From Algoriphagus resistens (GTDB lineage: Bacteria > Bacteroidota > Bacteroidia > Cytophagales > Cyclobacteriaceae): 64,000 nt of DNA. The notes beneath the pieces are model-generated. The model ran no database searches. It was not told the origin of the DNA and saw only the letters and a list, made by a program, of their open reading frames with translations. Position numbers and translations under genes: made by a program. Positions 44,879 through 50,017 of the stretch are shown piece after piece. The stretch spans positions 1 to 64,000 of the forward strand of contig NZ_LMXN01000003.1 in assembly GCF_001442615.1 (NCBI RefSeq), written 5' to 3'. Every line of letters begins with the position of its first letter. The first letter of the stretch is position 1.

Positions 44879-45316
44879 TTACTTAAAGGTATATTTCACT
44901 CCAATCCCCCCTCTGAGGTAGGAATGGGAATGATTTGCTATTACTGGTGCGGCTTCTATCAAAAAACCCAGATTTTTGGTATTAAAAGGCTTGATCAGTA
45001 CGCCCACCGGGATAGCCACATAAATATCATTATGGTCGTCATGATGCTTGTGATGATGATCCCCCAGTAGGCCCAATCCTGCTCCCACATAAGCATTGAC
45101 CTCACTTTTCCTTACGAAATTATAGCCTCCCATCAGCTCCAGACCCAAGTCATGACCGATACCAAGTCTGGCTTCTCCGAAAAATTCTTTATCAGTATCC
45201 GTGCCTACGGTAATAAAAGTATCAGAAGTCTGGAAATTGATCCCTACTGATACTTGCGCCTTAGAAATGGATATAAAAGCAACTAGAGTAAATGCTAATA
45301 AGAAAACTTTTTTCAT
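44879..45316 (-). CDS. small outer-membrane beta-barrel protein with His-rich loop
   Basis: A 145-residue protein with a signal peptide (cleavage near SKAQ). It has alternating strand patterns (GLELMGGYNFVRK, VNAYVGAGLGLL, LRGGIGVKYTFK) and a C-terminal aromatic-rich end, typical of a small eight-strand barrel. A loop reading GDHHHKHHDDHND (about residues 85-97) is very rich in His and Asp and could bind divalent metals. Function unknown. Confidence 0.7.
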   Translation of the reverse strand: MKKVFLLAFTLVAFISISKAQVSVGINFQTSDTFITVGTDTDKEFFGEARLGIGHDLGLELMGGYNFVRKSEVNAYVGAGLGLLGDHHHKHHDDHNDIYVAIPVGVLIKPFNTKNLGFLIEAAPVIANHSHSYLRGGIGVKYTFK

Positions 45317-45463: not shown

Positions 45464-46510
45464 TTACCAACCTCCCTCTTCTTTAGAAATTCTCCGACCT
45501 TCTTCAGCACTTATAAAAGAGGCTTCAATAATCTTCAAAACGCTGATGGCCTGAGCTATGGTGATGTCCAGAGTAGTTCCTTTCAAGATCGCATCGGCGA
45601 CGTTCTGATACAGGACTCTGTAATTGCCGGGAATGGTTTCATAGGGCTTTGTTTCCTCATTGAGGAAAATTTCTCCCCACTTCTCCTCAGTTTCCACACC
45701 CCACGATGATCCTTCAGGCTTTTTGCCCGCCTTGAAAGCTGCTTCTTGAACATCCAGCCCAAACTTCTGATACGCCCCTTTTTTTCCCAATAACAAAAAC
45801 TTTGGAGTAGGTGCATTCACCAAGGCGCCCGCTGTCACTCTGGCTTTGAGCGAACCGTAATCCAGAATAATATCAAAATAATCATCTGCTATAGCTCCTC
45901 CCCGCTGTTTACGGATATCCGCCTGAATCCAATTTGGTAAACCAAAAAGCAATACTACCTGATCGATCAAATGTGACCCGAGATCAAATGTGATTCCATT
46001 TCCAGGCACTTCCATTTCCCGCCAGTTCTCCGAAACATCCGGACGGAAACGGTCAAAATGAGATTCCAGATAAACCAGATCTCCCAAGTCCCCTTCACGC
46101 ACTAATTTCTGCAAGGTCATAAAATCCCCATCGTAACGGCGGTTATGAAAAATAGAACAAATCAAACCCTTCTTTTCAGCTAGCTTATTTAGCTCTGCCG
46201 CCTCATGAGAAAATATTGTAACAGGCTTATCTACCACCACATGCTTTCCTGCTTCCAGACACTGCATCGCCATAGGAAAATGAAATTCATTTGGAGTAGT
46301 AATCACAAGTAGGTCAGCAGCGTCTGCAGCCAGCAATTCTTGCAAACTTCTATACGTAGTCACGCCAGCATACAATTCTTCACATCGATTGGTACGGCGC
46401 TCCACAGAAGCTACAAGCTCAAGGTCAGGACAAACATCAATAAGTGGTGCATGCATTTTTTCAGCTACTGAGCCAAAGCCAATAATGGCAGTTTTAATAG
46501 TATTCCCCAT
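45464..46510 (-). CDS. Gfo/Idh/MocA-family oxidoreductase
   Basis: A 348-residue NAD(P)-dependent oxidoreductase. The Rossmann start is TAIIGFGSVAEKMHAPLID, and VVDKPVTIFSHEA is the family's EKP-type motif with Asp in place of Glu. FDLGSHLIDQVVLLFG is the substrate-domain motif with catalytic His. Members act on sugars, inositols or biliverdin; the substrate here is not readable. Its start lies two bases from the response regulator stop, so it may belong to the same transcript. Confidence 0.88.
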   Translation of the reverse strand: MGNTIKTAIIGFGSVAEKMHAPLIDVCPDLELVASVERRTNRCEELYAGVTTYRSLQELLAADAADLLVITTPNEFHFPMAMQCLEAGKHVVVDKPVTIFSHEAAELNKLAEKKGLICSIFHNRRYDGDFMTLQKLVREGDLGDLVYLESHFDRFRPDVSENWREMEVPGNGITFDLGSHLIDQVVLLFGLPNWIQADIRKQRGGAIADDYFDIILDYGSLKARVTAGALVNAPTPKFLLLGKKGAYQKFGLDVQEAAFKAGKKPEGSSWGVETEEKWGEIFLNEETKPYETIPGNYRVLYQNVADAILKGTTLDITIAQAISVLKIIEASFISAEEGRRISKEEGGW

Positions 46511-46512
46511 AA

Positions 46513-47139
46513 TTAGAGATTCATTTCGTGTGCCTTATTTACCAGCTCAATGCGCGAACTGACCCGAAGTTTTTGATGGATATTCTTGCGATGTGTTTCT
46601 ATAGTTTGCCTGCTTAAGTTTAGTCTTTCCGCAATATTTTTATTTTGAATCCCATCTCTGATCAATTGGATGATTTCGGTTTCCCTGCGTGAAAGTTTAT
46701 ATTTCAGCCTAAAAGCATCATAGTAGGCTCCCTGGATAGCTTGTTTTTTTACCCGGTCAAAATTCAGGACATGGCGCCCTTCAAAAACTTCACGGATTGT
46801 AAAAATCAATTCGTCAGGGTCGGCATCTTTGAGGATAAATGCATCGGCTTTCTGATTGATACATTTTTTGTAAATCTTCTCCTCATCATACATGGAAAGA
46901 ACTACAACCTTCAGATCCGGATGTTCATTTTTGCAATGGGTTAAAACCCCAAAGCCGTCCATTATCGGCATATTCAGGTCGGTAAGAACCACATCCACTT
47001 GATTTTCGGCTATATAATTACAAAGCTCACTGCCGTTTGGGAAGACACCGACGACTATCAAGTCGTGCTCTTCCTCAAGGAGGCCTTCTATTCCTTTTGC
47101 AAATAATTTATGGTCATCAGCCAGGGCAATCCTGATCAT
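46513..47139 (-). CDS. LuxR/NarL-type response regulator
   Basis: A 208-residue regulator with a receiver domain (IALADDHKLFAKGIEGLL, phospho-acceptor Asp54 in LTDLNMP, Lys in ILKDADPDE) and a C-terminal LuxR helix-turn-helix (LSRRETEIIQLIRDGIQNKNIAERLNLS). It starts at ATG 47139; the frame runs 13 codons further up. The adjacent kinase is 54 bases upstream, so they form a two-component pair. Confidence 0.94.
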   Translation of the reverse strand: MIRIALADDHKLFAKGIEGLLEEEHDLIVVGVFPNGSELCNYIAENQVDVVLTDLNMPIMDGFGVLTHCKNEHPDLKVVVLSMYDEEKIYKKCINQKADAFILKDADPDELIFTIREVFEGRHVLNFDRVKKQAIQGAYYDAFRLKYKLSRRETEIIQLIRDGIQNKNIAERLNLSRQTIETHRKNIHQKLRVSSRIELVNKAHEMNL

Positions 47140-47193
47140 GAGTAGGGAGATTAGTATTTTGGGGAGATTAAGCTCCAAATTATACCCTTAAAT

Positions 47194-47949
47194 CTAATTT
47201 GGCAAGATTAAAGTTATTTCTGTTCCTTTTCCGACAGCAGAAGTCAGTTCAAACTCGCCACCGATCGTATTCATTCTCTTCTTGAGATTGTGCATTCCGC
47301 TGCCGTTGGTCTGTTGGGAAGGGTCAAATCCTTTACCATCATCCAGTATCTGGATTTGTTTTCCCTTTCCGTTCTCACAGATTCTTATCAGAATTTTATC
47401 CGGCAACGCATGCTTGATTGAATTGTTTAGAGACTCCTGGATTACCCGGATCAGCACCAGTTTTTGCTCCTTCGGCAAATCAACAAGTTCAAAGTCTGCT
47501 TCCAACATGGTTTCACAAAAACCCGTAGCCTTGATCCGTTCAAGCTGCTGCTCGATAAATTCATTGATGCTAATTGACTCCACCCAGTCGAGGTTAAGCA
47601 TTTTGGACAAGCTACGAACCTCCTGAATCGTCTGGTTTAGGATCATTTTCCCCTCCTCATGCTTCTCCGGCTTGATGGAGCCAAAATTAAGCTTGGCCAA
47701 AGAAAGCAGCTGCCCGATATTGTCGTGCAATTCCCTTCCAATCCGGGTAAGGGTATCTTGCTGGATTTCATTTTCTATATTCAGCAAGGTCTTCTCATGC
47801 TCCGATTTGATCTGATCCACCTTCTGCCGGTTTTGAGCCTGTCTCTGTCTGTGGATAAATACCATAGCTATTACAAAAGTTGACATAATCCCTCCCAGGA
47901 ACAAGGTAGAGAAGATAATTATGTAAACTTGGCTTTCAAGAAAACTCAT
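47194..47949 (-). CDS. sensor histidine kinase (HisKA_3 type)
   Basis: A 251-residue kinase with one N-terminal membrane helix (about 8-32), a short coiled coil and a HisKA_3 dimerisation region with RIGRELHDNIGQLLSLAKL (phospho-acceptor His75). The HATPase domain has ESLNNSIKHA (N box) and ILDDGKGFD and GSGMHNLKKRM (G boxes). It has no sensory domain of its own. Its start overlaps the end of the multi-pass protein gene by 14 bases, so that protein may be its sensor. Confidence 0.93.
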   Translation of the reverse strand: MSFLESQVYIIIFSTLFLGGIMSTFVIAMVFIHRQRQAQNRQKVDQIKSEHEKTLLNIENEIQQDTLTRIGRELHDNIGQLLSLAKLNFGSIKPEKHEEGKMILNQTIQEVRSLSKMLNLDWVESISINEFIEQQLERIKATGFCETMLEADFELVDLPKEQKLVLIRVIQESLNNSIKHALPDKILIRICENGKGKQIQILDDGKGFDPSQQTNGSGMHNLKKRMNTIGGEFELTSAVGKGTEITLILPN

Positions 47950-48694
47950 AGGATGGTTCTTTTTCAAATATTGTTGGCAAAAGAGGAGATGCTATCGTAA
48001 GGGTAAAAACTCCTAAATTGAAGAGTTGTACCGCCATACCTAATTCTTGTAAAGTATTACCTAAAACAGGGTTTACCTGATAAAGATACAATAAGGCCAC
48101 TGAACTGATATATGACAAAGTGAAAGCGAACATAATAAAAGTCATTTGCCAAAATGATAGTAACCTCAATGGGTTGCGTATCAAATATTGTTCAACAGTG
48201 ATCAACCCAATGAAGTACAACCCACTTCCGATCAAAATCATATTAGCCCCAATAGTAAAGATAATAGGCTGATTCAAATAAAGAGGCTCAATACCTGATA
48301 ATTGAATTACACCTGTCACAGCTATGAAAATGTAAATCATCCAGGTCATGTATTTCCTTTCAGAAGGCTCAAGCCAGGATTTGATCAGTACTAAATAGAG
48401 GATTACACCTATTTGTCTCTTTGTAAGATTAAAGAGCCAAAGGTTAAACTTGGGATATTCCGTATTCCCCAAATAGGCATTTACTGTTTTTTTGAATTCA
48501 AAATTATAATTGGTGTATGCTCCTAGATTCTCATAAAAGACAGTAAACACCACTATCAAAAAAGGGAGACAATAGTGAATATCCGTTCTTCTTTCCTTTG
48601 ATAACCTGATAAAACTAAATATTCCGATAATTAAAAGTAGATTAGAAATAATGGTGAACCAGTGCGAATAAGCCTGTATCAATTTACTGTCCAT
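47936..48694 (-). CDS. multi-pass membrane protein, paralogue 2 of a tandem pair
   Basis: A 252-residue protein with seven or so hydrophobic segments and no known domain that I recognise. It is clearly homologous to the protein encoded just upstream: shared pieces include NAYLGNTE(Y/F)P, NLWLFN(L/V)T, LIKSWLEPS, IFTIGANMIL and the C-terminal FEKEPSYE. The conserved soluble-looking segments between helices may bind a ligand or contact the kinase. Start at ATG 48694, three bases after the preceding stop. Confidence 0.8.
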   Translation of the reverse strand: MDSKLIQAYSHWFTIISNLLLIIGIFSFIRLSKERRTDIHYCLPFLIVVFTVFYENLGAYTNYNFEFKKTVNAYLGNTEYPKFNLWLFNLTKRQIGVILYLVLIKSWLEPSERKYMTWMIYIFIAVTGVIQLSGIEPLYLNQPIIFTIGANMILIGSGLYFIGLITVEQYLIRNPLRLLSFWQMTFIMFAFTLSYISSVALLYLYQVNPVLGNTLQELGMAVQLFNLGVFTLTIASPLLPTIFEKEPSYEFS

Positions 48695-48697
48695 CAA

Positions 48698-49471
48698 TTA
48701 AGCGCTCTTTCGTCCCTGAAGTTCATAGGATGGTTCTTTTTCAAATATTCCCGGCAATAGTGGCGAGGCAATAGTGAGCATTAGTATTGCTAAATTAAAA
48801 ACATCCATTACTATTTCTGTATAAGAAAGTGATTTGCCAAGCTCATAATTGTAAGTTACCAAGTAAAGCTTAGTGACGTCATTGATGTAGGTTAAAGAGT
48901 AGGTAAAAAGAATAAACGTCATTTGCCAAAAGGAGGTTAGTCTCAGGGGATTCGAATTGAGGTATCTATCGTTTGTCATCAACCCGACAAAATAGAGACC
49001 ACTACCCACCAGAATCATATTAGCCCCTATGGTGAATATTAAGGGCTGAAACCAATAAATAGGCTCAAGTCCGGAAAATTGTATGACCTGACTGCTTACC
49101 ACAAACCCTGTCAGCATCCAGTTTATATATTTCTTTTTCGAGGGTTCAAGCCAGGATTTTATTAGGAAAAGATAGAGTATGGTCAATACTTGCTTGTTGG
49201 TAACATTAAATAGCCATAGATTATATCTAGGAAATTCCGTATTCCCAAGGTAGGCGTTAACCGACCTGTTAAACTCGTGATCATACAGGGTATAGGCTCC
49301 CATGTTTGAATAGAACACCGTAAACATTAAGATCAAAAAGGGAAGCCAAAAGTACAATTGAACTCTTTGCTCCTTTGAAAGTCGGAAAAAGAAGAATATA
49401 CCTAATAATGCGAGTATGTCTATTATTATCATATACTCCTTTAAGAACACCTGAACAAACCTACTTCCCAT
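48698..49471 (-). CDS. multi-pass membrane protein, paralogue 1 of a tandem pair
   Basis: A 257-residue protein with about seven hydrophobic segments and a short basic C terminus (QGRKSA). It is the tandem paralogue of the next gene. A 26-base stretch at the 3' ends (48724-48749 and 47947-47972) is identical, showing a fairly recent duplication or gene conversion. The preceding gene's stop lies two bases upstream of its start. Function unknown. Confidence 0.8.
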   Translation of the reverse strand: MGSRFVQVFLKEYMIIIDILALLGIFFFFRLSKEQRVQLYFWLPFLILMFTVFYSNMGAYTLYDHEFNRSVNAYLGNTEFPRYNLWLFNVTNKQVLTILYLFLIKSWLEPSKKKYINWMLTGFVVSSQVIQFSGLEPIYWFQPLIFTIGANMILVGSGLYFVGLMTNDRYLNSNPLRLTSFWQMTFILFTYSLTYINDVTKLYLVTYNYELGKSLSYTEIVMDVFNLAILMLTIASPLLPGIFEKEPSYELQGRKSA

Positions 49472-49473
49472 TC

Positions 49474-49878
49474 TTATGAACCGGTAGGCTCATCTTCACA
49501 GTGAAAAGGACATGTGACTCCTCCATTTTCATATTCATCTCCCATGCCACCCCGCTCGACTGAAAAAGGCATTTTCCCTTTTAGGTTAGCTGCCCGCATC
49601 ACTAAAGTTAACTGCCCGCAATAGGCCGCTCCCTCTTTTGGATGGGTTTTTTCAGCAGTTTCCTCGGTGTATTCGGTGAAGTAAAACTGTATTCCCCCCA
49701 CCTTTGGGTCTTTATCAGCTTTAGCCAATAGCCCCTCTAGTGTTTCTCTATCTAAGAATATCCAGTCGGTTTGATTATTTTTGTCTTTCTTTCTAGTTCC
49801 TGTTGCCGGTTTGCCTTTTTTGACTTCGGTATCATACTTACCTTTCATTGCTTCGAAGTCTTTTTTGTCAATTTTCAT
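49474..49878 (-). CDS. small soluble protein ending in CPxxC, unknown function
   Basis: A 134-residue protein without signal peptide. It starts MKIDKKDFEAMKGKYDTEV, has GGIQFYFTEYTEETA, YCGQLTLVMRAANL and ends with GGVTCPFHCEDEPTGS. The GIxFYF...TLVM layout with a final CPxxC recurs, as far as I recall, in several uncharacterised Bacteroidota proteins. The two closing cysteines could bind metal or be redox active. It is the first gene of the five-gene set leading to the kinase and regulator. Confidence 0.75.
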   Translation of the reverse strand: MKIDKKDFEAMKGKYDTEVKKGKPATGTRKKDKNNQTDWIFLDRETLEGLLAKADKDPKVGGIQFYFTEYTEETAEKTHPKEGAAYCGQLTLVMRAANLKGKMPFSVERGGMGDEYENGGVTCPFHCEDEPTGS

Positions 49879-49964
49879 GTATTGGGTTGCTGATAAGATT
49901 AAGAAATAGAATAAAGCATAAATTTCATCCCAAAAGATACGGATTTTCTCTGCTAGAAGGCAAT

Positions 49965-49998
49965 AAAAAAGGAGCGAGATCGTATCCCGCTCCTTTTA
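49965..49998 (-). terminator. rho-independent terminator of secDF
   Basis: AAAAGGAGCG and CGCTCCTTTT form a ten-base stem extended by GAT/ATC with one mismatch. On the minus strand it is followed by TTTTTTATT. Confidence 0.8.
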
Positions 49999-50017
49999 AA
50001 ATTTATCAAAATGCTTG

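Follow-up and report, generated by a model that had tools for sequence, protein, structure and literature searches.

A conserved gene cassette was found in a stretch of 64,000 nucleotides from Algoriphagus resistens (contig NZ_LMXN01000003.1, positions 1 to 64,000; hereafter the window). The cassette encodes, in this order, a small protein with a conserved C-terminal tail (CP), a seven-helix membrane protein (M), a short histidine kinase (HK), and a response regulator (RR). The cassette was found again across the genus and the phylum and is thus not a chance arrangement; its reality is near certain. The most probable interpretation, with a probability of roughly 60%, is that CP-M-HK-RR is a split-receptor two-component system, in which M would be the receptor and CP would be its cognate input partner through the tail. 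This interpretation is based on sequence comparison and structure modelling.

The window contains five open reading frames (ORFs) of the cassette, all on the minus strand. They are CP (49474..49878, 134 amino acids (aa)), M1 (48698..49471, 257 aa), M2, a tandem paralogue of M1 (47936..48697), HK (47194..47949, 251 aa), and RR (46513..47139, 208 aa). Reading of the sequence places the likely true starts of M2, HK, and RR slightly inside their ORFs, at ATG 48694, ATG 47949, and ATG 47139, respectively. The ORF of HK reaches TTG at 47967, and the length of 251 aa from ATG 47949 is the commonest among its homologues in the genus. With these starts, the intervals are 2 base pairs (bp) between CP and M1, 3 bp between M1 and M2, and 54 bp between HK and RR, and the M2 and HK genes share an overlap of 14 bp.

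A preliminary description, made from the letters of the window alone, had reported five genes packed on one strand with overlaps or short gaps, a 134 aa CPxxC protein, and a HisKA_3 kinase with one transmembrane helix (TM) and no sensor domain, whose start overlaps the second membrane protein gene, together with a LuxR-type regulator. All of these features were confirmed. CP has a GGIQFYF core, and its CPxxC motif is CPFHC in the C-terminal tail. The Pfam scan detected HisKA_3 (2.3e-06) and HATPase_c (1.3e-11) in HK, and Response_reg (2.6e-24) and GerE (7.8e-18) in RR. The phospho-acceptor H81 is invariant across 19 aligned kinases of the genus. HK and RR constitute a NarL/LuxR-type two-component system, as both the kinase and the regulator have the domains of this type. 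The two membrane proteins had been described as paralogues with about seven hydrophobic segments. M1 and M2 are 58% identical to each other, and the AlphaFold2 model of M1 has seven long helices; a plain hydropathy scan recovered only 4 segments in M1 and 6 in M2.

Within Algoriphagus, the cassette is conserved. Regions and genomes are referred to here by L and G numbers, respectively. The search with M1 revealed relatives in 26 of 58 genomes. The match in G050 (E 4.9e-4, within a frame of 1532 aa) is treated as spurious, and its region (L072) was excluded from the counts for the genus; 25 of the 36 genus genomes then contain M. CP, M, HK, and RR are present together in 23 of 25 genus regions, which come from 24 genomes. 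The remaining two regions, L053 and L056, are truncated at contig ends. An additional M-HK unit is present in three of the 23 complete regions (L054, L057, and L069), and the order is CP-M-CP-M-HK-RR in L051 and L055. The number of M copies per locus varies from one to four, as counted in two region sets that partly represent the same genomes. The duplication of M is therefore a local trait and the core consists of four genes. The five-gene set of the preliminary description thus holds as a conserved set, except that the tandem M pair does not belong to its core. In six of the 25 regions (L060, L065, L067, L068, L070, and L071), the flanking gene is a gene of 839 aa, not secDF, and the order of the cassette is therefore kept through a change of the flank.

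The 11 genus genomes without a match to M are all 2.8 megabases (Mb) or smaller and 67-91% complete, and the 25 genomes with M are at least 3.3 Mb. Due to the incompleteness of these 11 genomes, true loss of M is not certain in them, and loss accompanying genome reduction is a guess. The genome of A. resistens itself has one cassette of the CP-M-HK-RR type. Among its seven matches to the kinase profile, only the HK of the cassette is short, and the other six are in frames longer than 600 aa.

The cassette recurs far beyond close relatives. With broader profiles, CP was detected in at least 29 of 395 and M in at least 46 of 296 genomes of the phylum, including the genus. Profile comparison between genus CP and two distant CP sets showed probabilities of 98.2 and 94.9, and that between genus M and distant M showed 98.0. 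Unrelated control profiles showed probabilities below 1; the homology of the genus and distant members is therefore supported. The gene maps came from a greedy ORF picker, and some genes are hidden behind antisense ORFs in them (e.g., in L218). The 76 regions outside the genus (16 and 60, some selected by CP matches) hold 92 M genes. CP is directly upstream of 62 of them, HK is directly downstream of 65, and the order CP-M-HK-RR is seen for 45. If 20 further regions are included, 56 full CP-M-HK-RR runs are present in other genera and families of Bacteroidota. Five M-HK-RR sets (L302-L306) were found only via their kinases. In a sample selected by M, consisting of 55 regions from part of the broad M matches, HK is directly downstream of 46 of 62 M genes, and a CP recognised by profile is directly upstream of 38.

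M is tightly associated with short kinases. The kinase profile was searched against 14 genomes selected for carrying M, which is not a census. There were 101 HK matches, 34 of which are in frames of 320 aa or shorter. M is directly upstream of 32 of these 34 short kinases, 31 by script and one by coordinates (G065:C1:2386173, where M is masked by an antisense ORF in the map). The two short kinases without M upstream each occupy the second place in a tandem array of kinases (L208 and L213). Of the 73 matches in long frames, 14 loci were compared, and neither M nor CP is present in their upstream stretch. As a control this is weak, since most of the stretch compared is occupied by the sensor part of the kinase itself. 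No ORF among those of the 76 regions matches both the M and HK profiles, and thus no M-HK fusion was seen there. It is likely that M and HK together constitute one sensor. The proposal of the preliminary description that the multi-pass proteins are the sensory input is the best reading of this association, in which the short kinase is nearly always beside M in M-bearing genomes. As far as literature searches show, no input has been described for the short HisKA_3 kinases of Bacteroidota that lack a sensor, and M, next to 32 of the 34, is a candidate receptor for this class of kinases.

CP and M behave as a module. In L222 and L230, the kinases after CP-M are 667 and 684 aa long, respectively, and contain PAS and HATPase_c domains; the latter kinase additionally has HisKA and receiver domains. 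In L238, L242, and L257, the kinase next to CP-M has a PAS domain ahead of HisKA_3. Because CP-M precedes PAS kinases in some lineages, it appears to be an exchangeable input module. CP and M also duplicate jointly, in L051 and L055 and in L133 from another genus, whose order is M-CP-M-CP-M-HK-RR. In a set of 50 non-redundant cassettes, partial correlation controlling for RR links the distances between CP proteins to those between M proteins (r 0.48) and between kinases (r 0.52), and 0 of 2000 permutations reached either value; controlling for HK, the partial r between CP and RR is 0.01. CP is placed on the input side by its joint duplication with M, its persistence across kinase types, and its distances, which follow M and HK and not RR. 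CP had been proposed to be an accessory or output part; the role as a partner is consistent with these data, which are better explained by a partner in the input than by an output part.

The tail of CP is a recurring feature, but CPxxC is not. C123, P124, and C127 are invariant across 20 aligned CP proteins of the genus. Among 70 CP proteins outside the genus, CPxxC is near the end in 36, a variant of it is seen in 7, a PP tail without CPxxC in 19, and neither in 8. CPxxC, by which the preliminary description had referred to the protein, is thus not a defining feature of the family, and other CP proteins carry a Gly/Pro tail without CPxxC. The pattern [N/D]-x-G-x(2,3)-P or CPP/CPxxC was found in the tails of 32 of 38 recognised CP proteins and of 10 of the 15 products of genes upstream of M that were not recognised as CP, compared with a background of 8 of 243 ORFs. 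The test is exploratory because the pattern was written after the tails were seen. The recurring tail offers a concrete site to mutate. A heuristic combining hydropathy and lipobox assigned no export signal to 43 of the 70 CP proteins, a lipoprotein-like start to 24, and another N-terminal hydrophobic stretch to 3. One CP of 250 aa (L242:3381-4133) seemingly has two tandem copies of the core domain, by eye.

The AlphaFold2 model of M1 is of high confidence (predicted local distance difference test (pLDDT) 89.0, predicted template modelling score (pTM) 0.86). In the comparison with known structures, the 50 matches listed were all G-protein-coupled receptors (GPCRs), a channelrhodopsin, or a designed GPCR-like fold, with Z of 11.4-12.4 and root-mean-square deviation of 3.7-5.2 over 188-230 residues. 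The modelled arrangement of the seven helices is most similar to those of GPCRs and rhodopsins, without statistical support for kinship. The counts of lysine and arginine (K+R) are higher in loops 1, 3, and 5 and the C-terminal tail than in loops 4 and 6, and the topology with the N-terminus outside and the C-terminus inside is therefore mostly favoured, with loop 2 of the genus as an exception. The best-conserved columns among 131 M sequences include F181 and W182 at the start of helix 6, N84, and Glu at position 55 in helix 2. Histidine is not the commonest residue in any conserved column of these 131 aligned proteins, and no catalytic set was seen among the conserved columns; M is thus less likely to be an enzyme.

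CP, M1, and M2 showed no Pfam or NCBIfam family above the cut-off. Distant M proteins likewise showed no match above the cut-off in the Pfam scans, which included 28 broad members, or in NCBIfam (seven M proteins). The possibility that M is a known enzyme or transporter, which the preliminary description had considered, is rejected on the basis of the absence of such families in the window and in the distant members scanned; the sequence search against the PDB did not reveal one either. In the profile search against solved structures, M matched only KCNQ1 (best E 0.04), and CP had a single match (E 0.46). These are taken as chance matches. For M as a CREST hydrolase (Ceramidase/Per1), Per1 scored 10.5 bits against a cut-off of 25.3, and Ceramidase appeared in one of the 28 M members scanned with Pfam (E 0.0048). 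DUF4374 matched one of 15 CP members (0.00035), and the remaining members lack it. CP and M therefore represent two unnamed families, outside the Pfam and NCBIfam models in the members scanned.

In the proposed mechanism, M would act as a membrane receptor. HK, with its one TM and few residues outside the membrane, may be switched by contact with M and would then phosphorylate the LuxR-type RR. On the input side, CP would be M's cognate partner, and its conserved C-terminal tail may be used for docking or as a tethered ligand. A single HK-RR pair would be fed by one or several CP-M units in Algoriphagus. We infer here the physical contact of M with HK and with CP, the direction of signalling, the receptor function of M, and the role of the tail, the last of which is the weakest step.

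Several observations weigh against this mechanism. Of the 62 M genes in the sample selected by M, 16 are not directly followed by an HK recognised by profile. Four of them are followed by another M and two by PAS kinases, two are ORF-picking artefacts in L218, and eight remain. Similarly, 24 of the 62 have no profile-recognised CP upstream, and 5 of the 15 unrecognised genes upstream of M lack the tail pattern. The correlation between CP and M drops to 0.27 when HK is held constant. The model of CP is poor (pLDDT 51.3) and has no fold match. By eye, no signal peptide is visible in CP of Algoriphagus, in contrast to the 24 lipoprotein-like members of 70 elsewhere, and this difference bears on the side of the membrane on which the tail is located. 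For M, the best Foldseek E for M1 is 0.12, which is not significant, and Z of about 12 falls in the range where helical bundles may share a common arrangement (Z below about 13). Loop 2 of the genus, which is outside in the model, is as rich in K/R as some inside loops and contains acidic residues in equal number. M1 of the window lacks the glutamate in TM2 of most relatives, having Ser at position 55; M2 retains Glu.

A bolder version of the mechanism is that M is a GPCR-like seven-helix protein switched by the conserved C-terminal tail of its partner, which would be a peptide agonist in tethered or released form, and that the signal goes on to exchangeable histidine kinases. This is tentative and rather unlikely; if true, the cassettes would represent a widespread, paralogue-rich class of signalling systems in Bacteroidota. 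If the tail of CP were the ligand for M, it would constitute a peptide-gated seven-helix receptor system in bacteria. The model of M1 resembles GPCRs and microbial rhodopsins in the order and arrangement of the helices, which may be a common arrangement only. No 7tm or rhodopsin Pfam family was among the matches of the M members scanned, and there is no conserved column dominated by lysine in the last helix of the 131 aligned M proteins, as would correspond to a retinal-binding lysine.

Peptide signalling is an unlikely alternative. In such a system, CP would be a precursor whose tail is released or displayed outside, M would be the receptor or exporter, and HK-RR would read the signal, as in ComQXPA or Agr. 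These systems likewise have a small protein with a conserved C-terminus, a membrane protein, a kinase, and a regulator in one run of genes, and HisKA_3 kinase with LuxR-type regulator is the kind of pair represented by ComP-ComA. The recurrence of the tail at or near the C-terminus even where the body of CP is unrecognised, the duplication of CP and M in pairs, and the lipoprotein-like members are consistent with this explanation. However, CP is larger, its body is conserved over ~100 aa, and the heuristic detected no export signal in 43 of the 70 members. Among the constant parts of the cassette, none was seen to be a known type of processing enzyme or transporter, and no AgrB- or ComQ-like Pfam match was found in M1, M2, and CP of the window, 28 M members, or 15 CP members.

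The split-receptor interpretation places the multi-helix input in a gene of its own. ComP, UhpB, and DesK are fused multi-TM HisKA_3 kinases, in which a multi-helix membrane input similarly feeds a HisKA_3 core and a LuxR-type regulator. In the cassette, by contrast, this input is encoded apart from the kinase and has CP as a partner of its own.

A separate accessory membrane protein is known from LiaF-LiaS-LiaR, to which VraTSR is akin. It is unlikely that M is a LiaF-like inhibitor, restraining an intramembrane-sensing kinase until envelope stress, with CP as an accessory. The layout is similar, with an accessory membrane protein beside a kinase with little sensor and a regulator, and the sequence does not separate inhibition from activation by M. 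In the parts of PMC3543457 considered here, all LiaRS-like systems are stated to have LiaF as an associated inhibitor, and the LiaFSR core described there has no counterpart of CP. M has seven helices, and no LiaF-type match was found for M1 and M2 (Pfam and NCBIfam) or for 28 broad M members (Pfam). HK scored 59.7 bits against NF052531 (streptococcal LiaS), far below the cut-off of 450, and is not assigned to this LiaS equivalog. CP-M is also found ahead of PAS kinases, and such exchange of the kinase type, the added CP, and the presence in Bacteroidota distinguish the cassette from LiaFSR.

It is very unlikely that CP is a cytoplasmic redox or metal sensor that acts on the kinase through CPxxC, with M merely anchoring or modulating. 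The invariance of C123, P124, and C127 in the genus is in accordance with this explanation, as is the heuristic finding that an export signal is absent from 34 of 43 CP proteins with a Cys motif in the tail and present in 18 of 27 without it. Lineage confounds this association, and in at least one CP counted as lacking the motif (L213), a Cys motif is located further inside the protein. Many CP proteins in cassettes of unchanged gene order lack the Cys motif, and cysteine chemistry is therefore not a general function of CP. A defence system is rejected, as PADLOC weakly matched parts of RR and HK and nothing in CP, M1, and M2.

The preliminary description knew no described system of this composition. 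Full-text literature searches, mostly outside subscription papers, likewise listed no paper whose title or opening of the abstract describes it, and the passages of PMC8895600 and PMC3543457 considered here contain none.

A candidate promoter, TTG-N21-TATCTTTTGG, is located upstream of CP (49930..49963, minus strand). It was found by eye and corresponds to the promoter consensus of Bacteroidota. TATCTT is aligned at this position in 18 of 28 upstream regions of CP in the genus, counted by eye. A terminator-like hairpin, by eye an inverted repeat flanked by A/T runs, lies between secDF and the cassette (49967..49999), and similar hairpins are seen by eye in many of the 28 regions.

Downstream of the cassette, an ORF for an oxidoreductase of the Gfo/Idh type, labelled by eye, begins 2 bp after RR (45464..46510, minus strand). 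It directly follows RR in all 24 genus regions showing RR, and it is absent after RR in L129, L133, L136, and L142-L144 from other genera. It is probably a passenger of the cassette transcript; possibly it is a further gene of the cassette. No constant output gene beside the cassette stood out among eight flanking genes scanned, which varied: PheT, ProS (two), competence protein (two), a TonB/M56 protein, a PKD protein, and one unmatched. In two genomes of one family, a competence-protein gene (PF03772) is located upstream of the cassette on the opposite strand (L205:952-2964 and L206:1476-3566). In the window, positions 44879-45316 encode a small protein that appears by eye to be outer-membrane-like and has a His-rich stretch. 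Of the 25 genus regions, 20 have a homologue of this protein close to the cassette.

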